The position numbers and the translations under genes were made by a program. The notes under the pieces were generated by a model. It saw nothing but the letters and a program-made list of their open reading frames with translations. It was not told the origin of the DNA and did no database searches. Positions 14,801-21,356 of a stretch of DNA of 64,000 nucleotides are shown here, one piece after another; the first letter of the stretch is position 1, and every line of letters begins with the position of its first letter. The stretch comes from Agrococcus pavilionensis RW1 (GTDB taxonomy: Bacteria; Actinomycetota; Actinomycetes; Actinomycetales; Microbacteriaceae). The DNA lies in NCBI RefSeq assembly GCF_000400485.1, contig NZ_ASHR01000014.1:62001-126000 (forward strand), read 5' to 3'.

Positions 14801-14873
14801 GCCGCCTTAGCTCAGTCGGCAGAGCGATTCACTCGTAATGAATAGGTCCGGAGTTCGATTCTCCGAGGCGGCA
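14801..14873 (+). tRNA. tRNA-Thr (anticodon CGT)
   Basis: A 73-base cloverleaf folds fully. The acceptor stem GCCGCCT pairs with AGGCGGC (discriminator A). The D stem is GCTC/GAGC, the anticodon stem ATTCA/TGAAT encloses loop CTCGTAA (anticodon CGT, codon ACG), and the T stem CGGAG/CTCCG encloses TTCGATT. CCA is not encoded. Its 3' part is the integration site of the island and is repeated at 28593-28639. Confidence 0.97.
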
Positions 14874-14874
14874 C
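14828..14874 (+). other. attL: left 47-bp island end within tRNA-Thr
   Basis: The 47 bases from the anticodon stem through the acceptor end (TTCACTCGTAATGAATAG to GAGGCGGCAC) are identical to 28593-28639. Upstream sequence keeps the tRNA intact, so this copy lies on the gene side. Confidence 0.9.
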
Positions 14875-15172: not shown

Positions 15173-15517
15173 ATGTCCACCACATCGAAGAATGCGCGCA
15201 GGTTCACCTACGTCGCTGCGGGCGGGTTCGTGATCTTGCACGTGCTGTGCTGCGGTCTGCCGCTCTTGATCGCCGCCGGAGTCTTCGGCGGGATGAGCGG
15301 CGCGAGTCTTGCGACCGGCAACGCCGGGTTGGCCGCCGGCGCGGGCGTGCTGGTCGTGGGCTTGGTGGTCTGGCTCATCCGCCGCCGCGGTGCAGGTACC
15401 AGTAGTGATAGGGCTGATTGTTGCGTCCCGGACCAGCATCCCGTTGCCCGCAGCGAGTACGGGCCGGAGGCGCCGGATCGGGCACCGGCTGTGGGGGGCA
15501 CGGAGGCCGGCAAGTGA
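15173..15517 (+). CDS. MerT/MerF-like small mercuric transporter
   Basis: 114-aa membrane protein. Helix 1 contains a vicinal pair, HVLCCGLPLL (Cys26-27), the Hg-binding signature of MerT/MerF helices. Helix 2 spans ~52-69. The cytoplasmic tail has a second pair, RADCCVPD (Cys83-84). It would pass Hg(II) across the membrane to MerA. There is no separate MerP gene. GGGAAG precedes the ATG, and the stop overlaps the next gene's GTG. The mer role rests on the Cys pairs and context; the exact subfamily is uncertain. Confidence 0.72.
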   Translation: MSTTSKNARRFTYVAAGGFVILHVLCCGLPLLIAAGVFGGMSGASLATGNAGLAAGAGVLVVGLVVWLIRRRGAGTSSDRADCCVPDQHPVARSEYGPEAPDRAPAVGGTEAGK

Positions 15518-16482
15518 GCAGTTCGTGGGGGTTAGCGTTCTTGGCGGGGATGCTGGCGACGGTCAACCCGTGCGGGTTCGCGATGCTGCCGACGTACCTG
15601 GCGTATTTCATCGGCGCTGGCTCCCGGACAGGAGGCTCGCGACCATTGTGGGTCGGGGTGCGTTCTGGGGCCGCGCTGAGCGCGGGATTCTCCATGGTGT
15701 TTATCTCCGCGGGTTTGTTGGTGGCGGTGGGGCTGCGTTCTATCGCTTCAGCGATGCCGTGGGCGGCGGTGGGTATCGGCGGCGTGCTGATGGTCGCCGG
15801 GCTGGGCATGCTGGCCGGGTGGCGACTGTCCGGGTCCCGGCTGAACCTCAACCGGTTCCTCACACGGGACAAGCCAGGCTCCGGCCTTAAAGGGGCCTTC
15901 GCTTACGGGATCGCCTACGCGGTTGCCGCGCTCTCGTGCAGCCTGGCGCTGTTGTTGGTCGTTGCGGCTCAGGCCACTGCCACGGGCAGCCTGATCGGGT
16001 TGCTAGCCGTCTTCGCCGCCTACGCCGCGGGGTCCTCGGTGGTGCTGATGCTGCTGTCGGTCAGCGCGGCACTGGCCCATCACTCCCTGGCCAGGCGCAT
16101 GCAACGGCTACTGCCCCTGGTGCATCGCCTCAGCGCGATCGCGCTGATACTGGCCGGCCTGTACCTGATGCTCTACTGGCTTCCGGCCCTGTCCGGCGGG
16201 ACGGCCGGGTCGTGGCTGGGCTTTTTGGCCACACCGATCAGCGCAGCGAGTGTGGCCGTCACCGAGCTCGTAGTTCGCGCCTGGCCTGCACTGACTGGGG
16301 CAGCCATCCTTGCTGTGCTCCTGGCCGCCGTGCTGTCCCGGCGCCTCCGTCCCGCTGCCCGGACCGGACGCCCCGCGCGGGTAGCCGAGGACATCGACGG
16401 CGACCCGGACTCGTGCTGCGCGCCGGACCCGCAGGCCCTGGAGCCTTCCAGCGGCCCCGACAAGCAGGGAGGAACCCAATGA
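15514..16482 (+). CDS. CcdA/DsbD-type membrane thiol transporter in the mer operon
   Basis: 322-aa protein with about six to eight membrane helices. The CcdA signature ATVNPCGFAMLPTYLAY puts one redox Cys at residue 20; the partner is in AALSCSLALLL (Cys142). These two normally carry electrons from cytoplasmic thioredoxin to outside thiol proteins. An unusual cytoplasmic tail ends with GDPDSCCAPD (Cys301-302), a vicinal pair not part of the CcdA fold. Coupled to both neighbours by 4-base overlaps. It likely reduces the membrane-anchored thioredoxin encoded next. Confidence 0.85.
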   Translation: MSSSWGLAFLAGMLATVNPCGFAMLPTYLAYFIGAGSRTGGSRPLWVGVRSGAALSAGFSMVFISAGLLVAVGLRSIASAMPWAAVGIGGVLMVAGLGMLAGWRLSGSRLNLNRFLTRDKPGSGLKGAFAYGIAYAVAALSCSLALLLVVAAQATATGSLIGLLAVFAAYAAGSSVVLMLLSVSAALAHHSLARRMQRLLPLVHRLSAIALILAGLYLMLYWLPALSGGTAGSWLGFLATPISAASVAVTELVVRAWPALTGAAILAVLLAAVLSRRLRPAARTGRPARVAEDIDGDPDSCCAPDPQALEPSSGPDKQGGTQ

Positions 16483-17006
16483 CCCGCATCCGCAACCGCC
16501 GCGTTTACACCACTGTCGCCCTGTGCCTGGCCGCGGTGCTGGTGGCAGTCCTGGTGGTCATCGCCCTGAACCGAGGCGATCAGGCCCCCACCGTGGCCGG
16601 GGATGTGCCGGTGGAGATCACCTCCGTCGACGGCGAGGCGGTGGTGGTGCCTTCCGACCGCGCGACGGTGCTGTATTTCATGGCCAGCTGGTGCGCCTCC
16701 TGCGTCCCACAGGCGACGGCGATGGACGAGCTGGAGGAAGAGCTTGCCGATCAGGTCCGGTTCGTAGCGGTGGACGTGACCCCGGAGGGTTCTGAGATAG
16801 AGGTGGATCGGTTCCGTACCGCCGTTGGGGCACCCGGGCATCCGTACGTCGTGGATTTGACCGGGCGGCTCACCAGCCGCTACGGCATCACTTCGCTGGA
16901 CTCCACCGTGGTCGTGGCCCCGGATGGTGAGGTTCTGGCCCGGGCCGACGGCATGCCTATGGAGGCCGAGGCGCTGCGGGCATTCCTGGACGAAGCGCTC
17001 CGCTGA
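16479..17006 (+). CDS. Membrane-anchored thioredoxin-like protein (TlpA type)
   Basis: 175 aa. Residues ~10-30 form an N-terminal signal anchor (TTVALCLAAVLVAVLVVIAL). A thioredoxin fold follows, with the active site ASWCASCVPQ (Cys72, Cys75) and a cis-Pro region at GAPGHPYVVD. It should face the outside, where the upstream CcdA-like protein could reduce it. Within a mer operon it may keep Hg-binding thiols reduced or handle Hg-thiol adducts; that role is inferred. ATG overlaps the preceding stop. Confidence 0.87.
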   Translation: MTRIRNRRVYTTVALCLAAVLVAVLVVIALNRGDQAPTVAGDVPVEITSVDGEAVVVPSDRATVLYFMASWCASCVPQATAMDELEEELADQVRFVAVDVTPEGSEIEVDRFRTAVGAPGHPYVVDLTGRLTSRYGITSLDSTVVVAPDGEVLARADGMPMEAEALRAFLDEALR

Positions 17007-17127
17007 CCCGTAGCTCACCCGCGCCCCGTTAGTTCAACCGTCGACCCGACGTTGCTTGGCCGGTTCCGGCTGGGCGCAGGCGCCTGACTGACCGGCCTCT
17101 TCTTCATCTCCTTTCGGGCGGGCCCCT

Positions 17128-17159
17128 TGACCTTCTCCCGAAGGGGAAGGTGCACAGTA
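17128..17159 (+). promoter_or_regulatory. MerR-type promoter/operator 2 (before merA)
   Basis: Same design as operator 1: TTGACC (17128-17133), 20-base spacer, CACAGT (17154-17159), and a 22-bp dyad (17131-17152, ACCTTC...GAAGGT). Only the central bases differ from the first copy. It would give merA-merB its own Hg-induced promoter. Confidence 0.82.
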
Positions 17160-17187
17160 GGTATAGCCCGACAACAGGAAGGCTCCT

Positions 17188-18669
17188 GTGGAAGCTCTTC
17201 CTCAACCATCTGTGGAGGTTCCTGTGCCCGAAACTGCCGCTTCCGAGTTCGATCTGGCGATCATCGGCTCTGGTGGTGGCGCGTTCGCCGCCGCGATCCG
17301 GGCGACCAACCTGGGCCAGCGCGTGGTCATGATCGAGCGGGGCACCATCGGGGGCACCTGCGTGAACACCGGGTGCGTGCCGTCCAAGGCGTTGCTGGCC
17401 GCCGCCGATGCCCATCATGTTGCCCTGGACGCGTCGGTCAGGTTCCCCGGCGTCAGCACGTCCGTCGGTCGGGTGGACATGTCCGGGTTGGTGGCGGGGA
17501 AGGACGATCTGGTGGAGTGGATGCGCTCCGAGAAGTACGTAGACCTGATCGACGAGTACGGGTGGGGCCTGCGGCAAGGTGACGCCACGTTCACCGGCAG
17601 CGCCGAGGACCCGGTGCTGGAGATCACCGATGGCGGCGGGGCAGTGGAAACGCTGCGGGCCCGCCACTATCTGGTGGCGACGGGCTCGGCCCCGTGGGCT
17701 CCTCCGGTCGATGGTCTGTCTGAGGTCGACTACCTCACCTCGACGACGGCGATGGAGCTGCAGGAGGTTCCAGAGTCGATGATCGTGCTCGGCGGGGGCT
17801 ACGTGGCCCTGGAGCAGGCCCAGCTCTTCGCCCGGCTGGGCTCAAAGGTCACGGTGCTGGCCCGCTCCCGGCTGCTCTCCGGCGAGGAGCCCGAGGTCTC
17901 GAAAACCCTCATGGGTGTCTTCGCCGATGAGGGCCTCCGAGTGGTGCGCCGGGCTGTCGTCGAGTCCGTGGCCACCGACCCGGTCACCGGTGGCGTCGTC
18001 GTGGCCGCCACGACCCGCGCCGGGCGCGAGGAGTACACCGCGGACCGGTTGCTGGTGGCTACCGGGCGCCGGGCGGTCACCGAACGCCTTGGCCTCGCAA
18101 CGGTCGGGGTCGCCACCGGGGAAGGTGGGGAGATCATCGTGCAGGACACGTTGGCGACCTCCAACCCCCGGATCTGGGCGGCCGGGGACGTCACCGGGCA
18201 CCCAGAATTCGTCTACGTGGCCGCGGCCCATGGAGTCACCGCGGTGGAGAACGCCTTCAACGACGCTGGGCAACGGATCGATTACACCCACCTGCCTCGC
18301 GTCACCTTCACCTCTCCGGCTGTGGGCGCGGTGGGCATGACCGATAAGCAGGCGAGGGAGGCGGGCATCCGGTGTGAGTGTCGGGTGCTGCCCCTGGAAT
18401 ACGTCCCGAGGGCGTTGGTGAACCGTGACACCCGGGGTTTCGTCAAGATCGTCGCCGACGCCGACACCGGGCGGATCGTCGGGATCACCGCGGTGGCCAA
18501 GGAGGCCGGGGACCTGGCCGCGGCTGGGGTCTACGTCCTGTCCGCCGGGATGACGGTGGACCAGGTTGCGACCCTCTGGTGCCCGTACCTGACGATGGCC
18601 GAGGGCCTCAAGATCGCCGCCCAGTCGTTCCGCACCGACGTCTCGAAACTCTCCTGCTGCGCCGCGTGA
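17188..18669 (+). CDS. merA: Mercuric reductase
   Basis: 493-aa FAD/NAD(P)H disulfide oxidoreductase reducing Hg(II) to volatile Hg(0) in the cytoplasm. FAD motif GSGGGAFAAA, redox pair GGTCVNTGCVPSK (Cys58, Cys63), NAD motif VLGGGYVALEQAQ, and FAD motif IWAAGDVTG. The C-terminal vicinal pair KLSCCAA (Cys490-491) is diagnostic for MerA and accepts Hg from donors. No N-terminal HMA (NmerA) domain is present, only a ~20-residue leader. The GTG start has GGAAGG upstream; GTG 17224 is a possible alternative. Confidence 0.97.
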   Translation: MEALPQPSVEVPVPETAASEFDLAIIGSGGGAFAAAIRATNLGQRVVMIERGTIGGTCVNTGCVPSKALLAAADAHHVALDASVRFPGVSTSVGRVDMSGLVAGKDDLVEWMRSEKYVDLIDEYGWGLRQGDATFTGSAEDPVLEITDGGGAVETLRARHYLVATGSAPWAPPVDGLSEVDYLTSTTAMELQEVPESMIVLGGGYVALEQAQLFARLGSKVTVLARSRLLSGEEPEVSKTLMGVFADEGLRVVRRAVVESVATDPVTGGVVVAATTRAGREEYTADRLLVATGRRAVTERLGLATVGVATGEGGEIIVQDTLATSNPRIWAAGDVTGHPEFVYVAAAHGVTAVENAFNDAGQRIDYTHLPRVTFTSPAVGAVGMTDKQAREAGIRCECRVLPLEYVPRALVNRDTRGFVKIVADADTGRIVGITAVAKEAGDLAAAGVYVLSAGMTVDQVATLWCPYLTMAEGLKIAAQSFRTDVSKLSCCAA

Positions 18670-18713
18670 GAGCCACACCCTCCCCAGCACACCAGAGCCC
18701 GGAAGGAATGGAT

Positions 18714-19373
18714 ATGACGAACCCCGACGCTCGCCAGGTAACCGAACGGCTGGCCACCGCCGAGTCGGGGATGCAGCCATGGCTGTGGATGCCGATGCTG
18801 CGGCTGCTGGCCCAGGGCAACCCGGTGATCCTTGAGGACCTGGCAACCGCGGTGGGCCGCCCAGTCCAGGAGGTCCGTGGAGCCGTGGAAGCGGTGCCCG
18901 ATATCGAGTACGACGGTGAGGGGCGGATCATCGGCCTGGGTCTGACCCAGCGGGCGACCCCGCACCGCTACGAGACCGGCGGGGAGCAGCTCTATACCTG
19001 GTGCGCCCTGGACACGCTGATCTTCCCCACCATCCTCGGGGCCCCGGCCCGGATCGAATCGGCCGACCACGCCACCGGGGAGCCGGTGCGGCTCAGCGTC
19101 GACGGCTCCGGGGTCACAAGCCTGGAGCCGGCCACCGCCGTGGTCTCCCTGGTCAATCCCGAGGACCTCAGCTCCATCCGCTCGGCGTTCTGCCACCAGG
19201 TCCACTTCTTCGCCTCCGCTGGCGACGCCGCCCCCTGGGTGGAGAGCCACCCCGGGGCCAGTGTGGTCCCAGTGGCGCAGGCCTACCAGCTGGCCACCGC
19301 CCTGGCCCTGCAGATGCTCGCCCAAGCCAACAGCGACACTTTCGGCAACGGGGCGGACGGCGGCTGCTGCTGA
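18714..19373 (+). CDS. merB: Organomercurial lyase
   Basis: 219-aa enzyme that cleaves the C-Hg bond of organomercurials and hands Hg(II) to MerA. The catalytic set is present with near-canonical numbering: Cys97 and Asp100 in LYTWCALDTL, and Cys160 in FCHQVHFF. An odd feature is the extreme C-terminus, GGADGGCC, which ends in a vicinal Cys pair (218-219). ATG 18714 is chosen because GGAAGGA sits 7 bases upstream; ATG 18708 is too close to it. Its position directly after merA fits broad-spectrum resistance. Confidence 0.96.
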   Translation: MTNPDARQVTERLATAESGMQPWLWMPMLRLLAQGNPVILEDLATAVGRPVQEVRGAVEAVPDIEYDGEGRIIGLGLTQRATPHRYETGGEQLYTWCALDTLIFPTILGAPARIESADHATGEPVRLSVDGSGVTSLEPATAVVSLVNPEDLSSIRSAFCHQVHFFASAGDAAPWVESHPGASVVPVAQAYQLATALALQMLAQANSDTFGNGADGGCC

Positions 19374-19464
19374 ACCGCACGTCGCGCTACGCCACTGACT
19401 GCGCCGTCACGACGAGCTCGACGAGTAGAACCGAATGATCCCCCGAGTCTGAAGGAGAAAGATC

Positions 19465-20814
19465 ATGAGCGAACATTTCGACGTGGCGGTCCTGGGCATG
19501 GGTCCCGGTGGTGAAGTGGCAGCCAGCCGCCTGATCAAAGCAGGCAAGAAGGTTGCCGTGATGGAGCGGGAGCTGATCGGCGGAGAGTGCGCCTACTGGG
19601 CGTGCATTCCCTCCAAGACGGTGCTGCGTCCGGCCGAGGCACGCGCCGAGGTCCGCAAGGCTGCGGGTGTCTCCGGGGCCGAGGTGGATTGGGACGCCAC
19701 GAGGGAGTACCGGGACTACATGATCCGCAACCTCGACGACTCGGCCCAGGTTGCGGGTTACGACAGGCAGGGCGCCACCGTCATCAAGGACGAGGCCTAC
19801 GTCACCGGACCGGGGCGGATCCAGGCAGGGGACCGGGAGATCACCGCCGAGCACATCATCATCGCCACCGGCTCTGAACCCGTGATCCCCCCGATCGAGG
19901 GGATTGAAGAGATCACTGCCTGGACCAACCGGGAGACCTACACGACTCACGACCTGCCGCAGCGCGCCGTCATCGTCGGCGGCAGCGCCGTCGGAGTGGA
20001 GACCGCCACGTTCCTAGCCCACTTCGGCCTGCAGGTCACCCTCGTCCACCGCGGGGACCTCCTGCTGAACCGAGAGGACCCCCGGGTGGGAGAACTCGTC
20101 CACGACTACCTCGCCCAGACCGGTGTGGACATCCGCTTGAGCACCTCGGCGGCCAAGGCACGCCGTGACGGCGAGGACAGCGTCATCGAACTCGACGACG
20201 GCACCGAGGTCGCCGCCGACGTCGTGATCTTCGGCACCGGCCGCAAGCCCCGCACCCAGGGCCTGGGCTTCGAACACGCCGGGGCACAACTGGGCGAGCA
20301 CGGCCAAGTGCTCATCGACGAGCACGCACGGGCGGGAGAGAACCTATGGGCGATCGGCGACGTCACCGGGGTGATGCCGTTCACCCACGTGGCGAAGTAT
20401 CAAGGGCGGATCGCCGCCGACGCCATCCTGGGCCGCGCCCACGCCGCCACCTATGACGGGATCCCCCGAGTAGTGTTCGGCGACCCAGAGATCGCCGCTG
20501 CCGGCCTCACGCAGCAGCAGGCCGCGCAGCGCGGGATCCGCACCACTGCCACCGAACTGGACCTGTCCAACGCCATCGCGCGGCCCTGGACCTACGAGCA
20601 GGACCCTCGCGGACATCTGGGTCTGCTCGCCGACGCCGAGCGGAAGGTGCTGATCGGGGCGTGGGCGATCGGGCCGCAGGCCGGTGAGTGGATCCACCAG
20701 GCCTCCCTGGCCATCAGGGCGCAACTATCGCTGCAGACCCTGTTGGACCAGGTCGCTCAGTTCCCGACCTACCATGAGGCCTACCAGGCCGCGTTGGAGC
20801 AGCTGGAAGTTTGA
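19465..20814 (+). CDS. Second flavoprotein disulfide reductase of the mer operon
   Basis: 449-aa FAD/NAD(P)H oxidoreductase: GMGPGGEVAAS (FAD), GGECAYWACIPSK (Cys42, Cys47; the mercuric-reductase-like GGxCxxxxC site), GGSAVGVETATF (NAD), LWAIGDVTG. The C-terminal half has AQFPTYHEAYQAAL, with His and Glu as in dimer-interface catalytic His/Glu pairs. It lacks the terminal CC of MerA, so it is unlikely to be a second MerA. It could recycle a thiol (for example mycothione or oxidised thioredoxin) needed for Hg handling. GGAGAAAG precedes ATG. Confidence 0.85.
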   Translation: MSEHFDVAVLGMGPGGEVAASRLIKAGKKVAVMERELIGGECAYWACIPSKTVLRPAEARAEVRKAAGVSGAEVDWDATREYRDYMIRNLDDSAQVAGYDRQGATVIKDEAYVTGPGRIQAGDREITAEHIIIATGSEPVIPPIEGIEEITAWTNRETYTTHDLPQRAVIVGGSAVGVETATFLAHFGLQVTLVHRGDLLLNREDPRVGELVHDYLAQTGVDIRLSTSAAKARRDGEDSVIELDDGTEVAADVVIFGTGRKPRTQGLGFEHAGAQLGEHGQVLIDEHARAGENLWAIGDVTGVMPFTHVAKYQGRIAADAILGRAHAATYDGIPRVVFGDPEIAAAGLTQQQAAQRGIRTTATELDLSNAIARPWTYEQDPRGHLGLLADAERKVLIGAWAIGPQAGEWIHQASLAIRAQLSLQTLLDQVAQFPTYHEAYQAALEQLEV

Positions 20815-20966
20815 CGCCCCCGTGCCGACTCCACGTGCCCCACGACAGCCACCGGAGCCTCCCACAGGAACGGTTCCATACCCGCTTCATCGCAGCGGAG
20901 GCTACCCCGCACAGACATTTCCACCATTGTTGGGATTCAAAGGCCATCTCAGGACTGGGAGAAACC

Positions 20967-21356
20967 ATGCGTATCGGAGAGGCGGCTGCAGCCGTCGGCA
21001 TGACCACCAAGGCCCTCAGGTTCTACGAGAGCCAGGGACTGCTCCCACCGGCCGAGCGCTCCGCCAACGGCTACCGCGACTACCCGGACAAGACCGTCGA
21101 CAGACTAGAGTTCATCCACCGCGGCAAGGTCGCCGGACTGCCCCTGGCCGAGATCCGCGACATCCTCCGTGTCCGCGACGCGGGACAGGCCCCCTGCACT
21201 CATCTGACCCATCAACTGGCCCAGCAACTGGCCGGCCTGGACCGGCAGATCGCCGAGCTGACCGCTGTCCGGGAAACCGTTGCCGAGCACTACAAGAGAG
21301 CAGCGGAAGGCGACCCCGACCGGTGCGACGCCCAGCGGATCTGCAGCTATCTGTAA
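20967..21356 (+). CDS. merR: MerR-family mercury-responsive regulator
   Basis: 129-aa regulator. The N-terminal winged HTH reads MRIGEAAAAVGMTTKALRFY then ESQGLLPPAER. The dimer helix follows. Three Cys (77, 120, 126: APCTHL, DRCDAQRICSYL) align with the Hg-binding Cys spacing of classic MerR (82, 117, 126). It probably acts on the two dyads at 15069-15090 and 17131-17152. It is encoded last in the operon, 152 bases after the reductase. The frame is open upstream, but ATG 20967 is where family similarity begins. Confidence 0.9.
   Translation: MRIGEAAAAVGMTTKALRFYESQGLLPPAERSANGYRDYPDKTVDRLEFIHRGKVAGLPLAEIRDILRVRDAGQAPCTHLTHQLAQQLAGLDRQIAELTAVRETVAEHYKRAAEGDPDRCDAQRICSYL

Follow-up and report, generated by a model that had tools for sequence, protein, structure and literature searches.

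Paired cysteines in the C-terminal tails of actinobacterial MerB and mer-linked CcdA-like proteins: candidate thiol arms for delivery of Hg(II) to MerA

Why should four proteins encoded in one mercury resistance (mer) operon each carry two adjacent cysteines towards the C-terminus? The question is raised by a 64,000 nt stretch of Agrococcus pavilionensis RW1 (contig NZ_ASHR01000014.1, positions 62,001 to 126,000; hereafter, the window), where a mer block of seven genes occupies 15173–21356 on the plus strand, in the order small MerT/F-like protein, CcdA-like protein, TlpA-like protein, MerA, MerB, second flavoprotein and MerR. An earlier note on this DNA had placed vicinal cysteine (CC) pairs at residues 83-84 of the small protein, 301-302 of the CcdA-like protein, 490-491 of MerA and 218-219 of MerB, and the cysteine inventory of the translated genes confirms all four; the TlpA-like protein, second flavoprotein and MerR of the window have no CC. 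The pairs of MerA and MerB are terminal or nearly so, as described, but 'tail' is a looser term for the membrane proteins, where the CC starts 32 (MerT-like) and 22 (CcdA) residues from the end. Apparently new here is the tail pair on actinobacterial MerB and on mer-type CcdA, which is conserved in most of the sequences compared; the tail CC of the small protein has a precedent in MerF. We consider it somewhat better than an even chance that the tails act as cytoplasmic thiol arms, taking Hg(II) where it enters or is produced and handing it to the C-terminal pair of MerA, as donors working in parallel.

The merB gene (18714–19373, plus strand) codes for an organomercurial lyase of 219 aa that scores above the cut-offs of PF03243 (126.8 vs 27), NF009710 (278 vs 193) and NF033555 (259 vs 200), and its only cysteines are C97, C160 and the terminal C218 and C219 (nt 19365–19370). 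C97, D100 and C160 are the equivalents of the active-site residues Cys96, Asp99 and Cys159, and are invariant in 56/56 of the MerB representatives surveyed below. The equivalent of position 117 is D118 in the window protein, and Cys occupies it in 20/56 representatives. As this fourth signature residue (Cys117) is absent, the strict label is 'MerB-like 117alt', a class to which 36 of the 48 actinobacterial representatives also belong, and whose activity is given in PMC8261052 as untested to its authors' knowledge. That source screens MerA for the C-terminal vicinal pair, and MerB for Cys96, Asp99, Cys117 and Cys159 only. A tail pair is present in 32/36 actinobacterial 117alt proteins vs 8/12 of those with Cys117, so there is no clear link between position 117 and the tail. 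An AlphaFold model of the window MerB has the lyase core (mean predicted local distance difference test (pLDDT) score 77.8) and matches 3f2f and its kin with E-values down to 7e-19; in fold (3f2h_B, template-modelling scores 0.78/0.84) and in its Cys96/Asp99/Cys159 equivalents it resembles the R831b-type MerB structures, but it differs by the Asp at position 117. The C-terminal helix of the model runs to residue 211, residues 212–219 are without secondary structure, and pLDDT falls below 50 over 210–219. The alignment used for this prediction was hand-picked with tail-less MerB left out, and its invariant C218 and C219 are not a count.

Counts were taken from 44 loci that the window MerB, used as seed, had matched in genome contigs, together with plasmid records. 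In genomes of the window's class, MerB was matched in 36/394, and a subset of these places was entered; 49 regions were taken from genome scans. After removal of open reading frames cut by contig ends, matches below 120 bits, and those whose alignment began beyond query residue 40 or stopped short of residue 180, clustering at 90% identity reduced 101 canonical rows (some loci being present twice) to 56 representatives, 48 actinobacterial, 6 proteobacterial and 2 from Bacillota, with or without merA in the locus. A cysteine pair lies within the last 14 residues of 40/48 actinobacterial MerB (28 CC and 12 CxC) and of 2/2 representatives from Bacillota, but in 0/6 of the proteobacterial ones, from which the window MerB differs in its terminal CC. 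Cysteines of the 48 actinobacterial proteins are concentrated at the very end, numbering 33, 25 and 20 at positions -1 to -3; over positions -4 to -7 the counts are 3, 2, 1 and 1, and no position between -8 and -30 has more than one. The linker ahead of the pair is poorly conserved, varying in length and sequence. Among the 18 distinct, more divergent MerB-like proteins listed (about 102 bits or less), a CC tail occurs in one, that of locus L138, a truncated MerB adjoining MerT/F-like and CcdA-like genes. Also left out of the count were L047 (truncated, with a tail CC as in L038), L048 (Acidobacteria) and L049 (Acidimicrobiia), and the MerB of the last two have no Cys in their final 30 residues.

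Seventeen representatives keep the MerB tail pair with no MerT/F-like or CcdA-like gene in the locus compared (the loci are of unequal length, some short). Where a membrane partner is present (36 loci), both the MerB pair and a membrane CC were found in 30, the MerB pair alone in 3, the membrane CC alone in 1 and neither in 2 (Fisher 0.045, a small table with no kinship correction). The two loci with neither are L036 and L063. In the Arthrobacter locus L036 (6001–6660 and 6664–7038), the MerB pair and one tail Cys of the MerT/F-like protein (DCYPP) are both missing.

The CcdA-like protein (15514–16482, plus strand, GTG start, 322 aa) barely reaches its family model, PF02683, at 27.4 bits against a cut-off of 27.1. 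Its only cysteines are C20 in the first transmembrane (TM) segment, C142 in the fourth, and C301 and C302 (nt 16414–16419); C20 and C142 are invariant in 20 aligned proteins, the hand-picked rows used for structure prediction. Hydropathy indicates seven TM segments, and as the lysine plus arginine counts of the successive stretches alternate (0 outside, then 3, 1, 6, 0, 4, 1 and 7), the CC tail is predicted to be cytoplasmic. C20 and C142, the adjacent TlpA-like gene and profile positions 1–228 are shared with the CcdA/DsbD family (PF02683) and with 5VKV, which is the sole PDB sequence match to the profile at E-values up to 0.01 (E 1.8e-22) and ranks first in a Foldseek search with the AlphaFold model (E 0.043; no match below 0.001). 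Since 5VKV covers only positions 1–228 of the 310 in the profile, the seventh TM segment and the tail are additions. Compared with 5VKV, a CcdA of 232 residues and six TM helices, the window protein is longer (322 residues), with seven candidate TM segments and CC in its charged tail, and in the set examined this combination was seen only in mer-linked proteins or on one mer plasmid; a CcdA-like function is compatible with this departure. In the model, residues 278–322 have no predicted secondary structure, and block pLDDT is about 40–50 from residue 281.

To place these features in the wider family, a profile of the mer-region CcdA was run over the fetched loci. A scan of 60 related genomes, chosen regardless of mercury, had found 99 CcdA/DsbD_TM places, and 70 of them are among these loci. 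Distinct sequences were counted, those within 6 kb of MerA or MerB being termed linked. The tail CC occurs in 27/37 linked vs 2/72 other CcdA (Fisher p about 4e-15, with no kinship correction), and both of the latter belong to plasmid pACHL02, whose merAB lies about 8 kb from one and about 13 kb from the other. When the four sequences of L051 and L138 are set aside, the unlinked count is 0/68, and among CcdA with a TM7-like segment it is 27/36 linked vs 0/11 unlinked. The tie to mer operons supposed in the earlier note is thus borne out, and the doubt attached to it, that most CcdA and MerB homologues in mer operons might lack such pairs, does not hold for either family.

The first report of the CcdA/thioredoxin pair may be that on transport genes in the mer operon of Streptomyces lividans. 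Table 4 of PMC12195606 includes, for Actinomycetes, CcdA and TrxA proteins whose annotation is mercury transporter, so a link of these proteins to mercury resistance is already on record, and PMC3466566 refers to many uncharacterised homologues within mer operons. No description of the MerB or CcdA tail pair was found in the literature searched, which was mostly open-access; older MerB papers may mention it.

The first gene of the block (15173–15517, plus strand) specifies a small MerT/MerF-like membrane protein of 114 aa. Hydropathy gives it two TM segments, and its only cysteines are C26 and C27 in helix 1 and C83 and C84 (nt 15419–15424) in a tail that starts with RRR and, as the lysine plus arginine counts are 3, 0 and 7, is predicted to lie inside. 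Both pairs and P86 are invariant in 10 aligned MerT/F-like proteins, and the tail CC occurs in 26/30 distinct tails, the misses being L036, L061, L063 and one of three in L051, which has CxC instead. Membership of MerF or MerT by profile was considered and set aside, family cut-offs not being reached: the window protein has no match to the MerF, MerT or MerE models at E-values up to 1, and ten homologues give weak matches to Pfam MerT (4, best E 0.0007), NCBIfam MerT (2, best 0.0002), MerE (2–3) and MerF (2, best E 0.055). The anatomy is nevertheless that of MerF, with two TM helices, one CC pair in the first, as in MerF itself, and a second in the predicted cytoplasmic tail. The protein, a putative importer of Hg(II), differs from MerF in length (114 vs 81 aa) and in reaching none of the three models. 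The earlier note regarded the MerA pair as the only known family feature, which is mistaken, because PMC5500634 describes MerF with two vicinal pairs, one of them Cys71-72 and exposed to the cytoplasm. Both MerF pairs are ascribed a transport role there, and merF is said to be absent from Gram-positive mer operons.

The proposed acceptor is MerA (17188–18669, plus strand, GTG start, 493 aa), a mercuric reductase core that scores 557 bits against a TIGR02053 cut-off of 454 and has the redox pair C58/C63 and the C-terminal CC490-491 (nt 18655–18660) of that family. The C-terminal CC is present in 30/30 MerA tails of the loci compared. The N-terminal domain NmerA, which some MerA proteins bear, was not detected in the window MerA by blastp (E up to 1e-3) with residues 1–75 of the L146 MerA, a single query that a divergent domain could escape. 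The same query found no NmerA for any of the 42 actinobacterial MerB representatives whose locus has a MerA match; L066, whose MerA is cut by the record end and was scored 'core' for that reason only, is not among the 42. NmerA is reported (Hong et al. 2010; Ledwidge et al. 2005) to collect Hg(II) from other proteins for the core of MerA. The donor tails would serve the same step, delivery of Hg(II) to the core, but with the thiols on the donors, and not in a metal-binding domain on the acceptor. As a strict rule, replacement of NmerA by the MerB tail was rejected, since the Enterococcus locus L150 has both. A stand-alone protein of about 105 aa is found near merA in several loci (L050:6038-6370, L052:4090-4401, L006:3952-4401, L033:3961-4350 and L049:2644-3087; the L006 and L052 copies are identical), but was not found in the window. 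Its loop reads GGGCC or GSGCC in place of the CxxC of HMA domains, and it is weakly HMA-like (L050, PF00403 E 0.0005, below cut-off; L052, no match), so it is possibly a detached NmerA with a vicinal pair.

How specific are the tails to these four families? Within the same loci, tail Cys was found in 0/30 distinct tails of TlpA and 0/19 of the second flavoprotein, and CC in 2/42 MerR tails. As a second control, CC was scored in the last 40 residues of most annotated coding sequences (CDS) contained in full in 17 mer regions of actinobacterial plasmids, omitting those cut by an end, a few tiny or split ones and one that did not translate cleanly; a lone MerT, a second MerT/F-like protein and a second MerA, none of which has CC, were counted separately. 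The motif was present in MerA (15/15), MerB (9/16, CxC ends uncounted), CcdA (9/11) and the small MerT/F-like protein (9/12), vs 6/148 other CDS, namely one MerR, four ArsR-type regulators and ArsI, so that the four mer families account for 42 of the 48 proteins with a tail CC. In four regions added after the pattern had been formulated, 3/3 actinobacterial MerB end in CC, the single CcdA and the single MerT/F-like protein carry CC, and the single Staphylococcus MerB ends in CCNI. A C-terminal peptide signal was also considered; it is unlikely, because the ends vary (CC, CxC, CCG, CCH, CCS, CCAL, CCAP and CCNI), and thiols for metal fit this variation better than terminal recognition.

The MerT/F-like protein, CcdA and MerB of the window each have one site pair and one tail pair of cysteines, and no others, and donors that carry a flexible Cys pair would be the simplest common cause of the tails. 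Imported Hg(II) would pass from CC26-27 in the membrane to CC83-84 of the MerT/F-like protein, or from C20/C142 to CC301-302 of the mer-type CcdA, and Hg(II) released from organomercurials would pass from C97/C160 to CC218-219 of MerB; MerA would receive it at CC490-491 and reduce it at C58/C63. In MerA, the C-terminal pair is regarded as the port to the buried site, and Lian et al., as described in PMC4525700, computed transfer of Hg(II) from the C-terminal pair to the buried one. Binding of Hg(II), its transfer, and the direction and order of that transfer are what we infer from the arrangement. The chain of docking sites from membrane to reductase proposed in the earlier note goes too far, since MerB keeps its pair in loci that show neither membrane gene, and MerB and the two membrane proteins are likelier to be separate donors to one acceptor, a star converging on MerA. 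A more elaborate version, in which a MerF-like channel, MerB and a seven-helix CcdA that changed from electron carrier to Hg(II) carrier each gained an arm independently, and the arms dock on the MerA C-terminal pair to do the work of NmerA from the donor side, is at present a tentative and rather doubtful proposal.

Several observations weigh against delivery from the tails to MerA. Mutagenesis cited in PMC5500634 found only the first CC of MerT and MerF to be important. The pair is missing from 10/37 linked CcdA, among them L036 (an ordinary CcdA near mer) and L142 (where the end of the reading frame seems unrelated), and from 8/48 actinobacterial MerB (L024, L036, L063, L064, L067, L102, L117 and L118), six of which adjoin a core MerA. 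The CcdA AlphaFold model is modest (mean pLDDT 70.7), and the Enterococcus locus carries NmerA and the MerB tail CC together. The MerB search was seeded by the window protein, so near kin are over-represented, and kinship inflates all p values. On a 56-row tree built with most of the tail removed and just its first few residues kept, at least 7 changes are required for presence of the MerB pair (at least 10 for the states CC, CxC and none); with about seven changes per 56 rows, the tails of most rows are inherited in common, and the rows are less independent than the Fisher values imply.

The tails might instead be protective sinks that buffer stray Hg(II) near the membrane and the MerB active site, with no directed transfer to MerA. 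The same facts of tail sequence would fit, the second MerF pair is reported to be unimportant (PMC5500634), and a few CcdA tails (L051, L056 and L224) have two CC pairs. However, MerB tails hold hardly any Cys beyond the terminal pair, and a two-thiol tail would add little capacity next to mycothiol, so we regard this as unlikely, even if it survives best of the alternatives. Only a little less credible is that the pairs are redox parts, the CcdA CC taking electrons from cytoplasmic thioredoxin while TlpA keeps extracytoplasmic thiols reduced, and the MerB pair protecting or regenerating the active-site thiols. The invariance of C20 and C142, a CxxC in 32/33 matched TlpA-like proteins, and the matches to 5VKV, the sole one among PDB sequences and the top one in Foldseek, argue for it. 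Against it, the CC is absent from all 68 unlinked CcdA, 11 of them with the TM7-like extension, and the idea offers no single cause for the MerB and MerT/F-like tails.

That each tail originated on one or a few occasions within an actinobacterial mer lineage, and persists by descent and linkage with no strong selection, appears improbable to us. The mer-type CcdA do score as a group apart from other CcdA, and the number of changes in the MerB pair is small, but the MerB linker diverges in both sequence and length and the terminal pair is kept all the same in 40/48; CC and CxC interchange, and L036 and L063 lack both the MerB pair and the membrane CC, bearing in mind the small and uncorrected table given above. 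Least probable of all is a general actinobacterial habit of soft-metal tails on proteins for As(III), Cd(II) and Hg(II), which the CC ends of ArsI and an ArsR-like regulator in L065 and the CC near the end of the ArsR-type mer regulators of L056, L060, L064, L224 and L226 would suit, but in the 17 plasmid regions only metal-related proteins carry the motif, by far the most of them mer proteins, and both arsenic proteins come from a single plasmid.

Most work on how free Hg(II) is shielded from cellular thiols, from its import or C-Hg cleavage until it is reduced, concerns proteobacterial NmerA systems. Conserved donor tails could explain how Hg(II) is handled in actinobacterial operons that have no fused NmerA, and the tail CC would provide a sequence mark for mer-type CcdA that are now annotated as cytochrome c biogenesis factors.

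The remaining genes of the block complete its layout. The TlpA-like protein (16479–17006, plus strand), which served as an internal control, has one N-terminal TM segment, a thioredoxin fold and a WCASC motif (C72/C75); its gene adjoins that of the CcdA-like protein, with putative electron transfer to an extracytoplasmic thioredoxin, and 4-base overlaps occur at both junctions among the MerT/F-like, CcdA-like and TlpA-like genes. After merB comes a second pyridine-nucleotide disulphide oxidoreductase (19465–20814, plus strand), whose best NCBIfam matches, below cut-off, are MerA and lipoamide dehydrogenase, and a flavoprotein of this kind also follows merB in many related loci. A MerR-family regulator (20967–21356, plus strand) that does not reach the MerR-, CadR- or CueR-specific NCBIfam cut-offs lies at the downstream end.

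Regulators of other loci also have cysteines near the C-terminus. ArsR-type mer regulators have CC there, as LDCC, LTCC or LSCC (L056:3436-3813, L060:4022-4396, L064:3504-3893, L224:3437-3820 and L226:3505-3888), and those of L061–L063 a single Cys at the same place. In the Tsukamurella plasmid locus L065 (7317-7778 and 7874-8227), the tail of ArsI is ...ACCTPAAANCC and that of the ArsR-like regulator ...ATCC.

A tRNA-Thr(cgt) gene (window positions 14801–14874) lies directly upstream of the mer block, and MerB was matched in 0/23 same-genus genomes searched, so the block looks horizontally acquired. Plasmid pCP2 of R. qingshengii has the first six genes of the block in identical order, with protein identities to the window of 80–92% from CcdA through the second flavoprotein and 64% for the small protein, and with one gene inserted before merA and three before the downstream merR.

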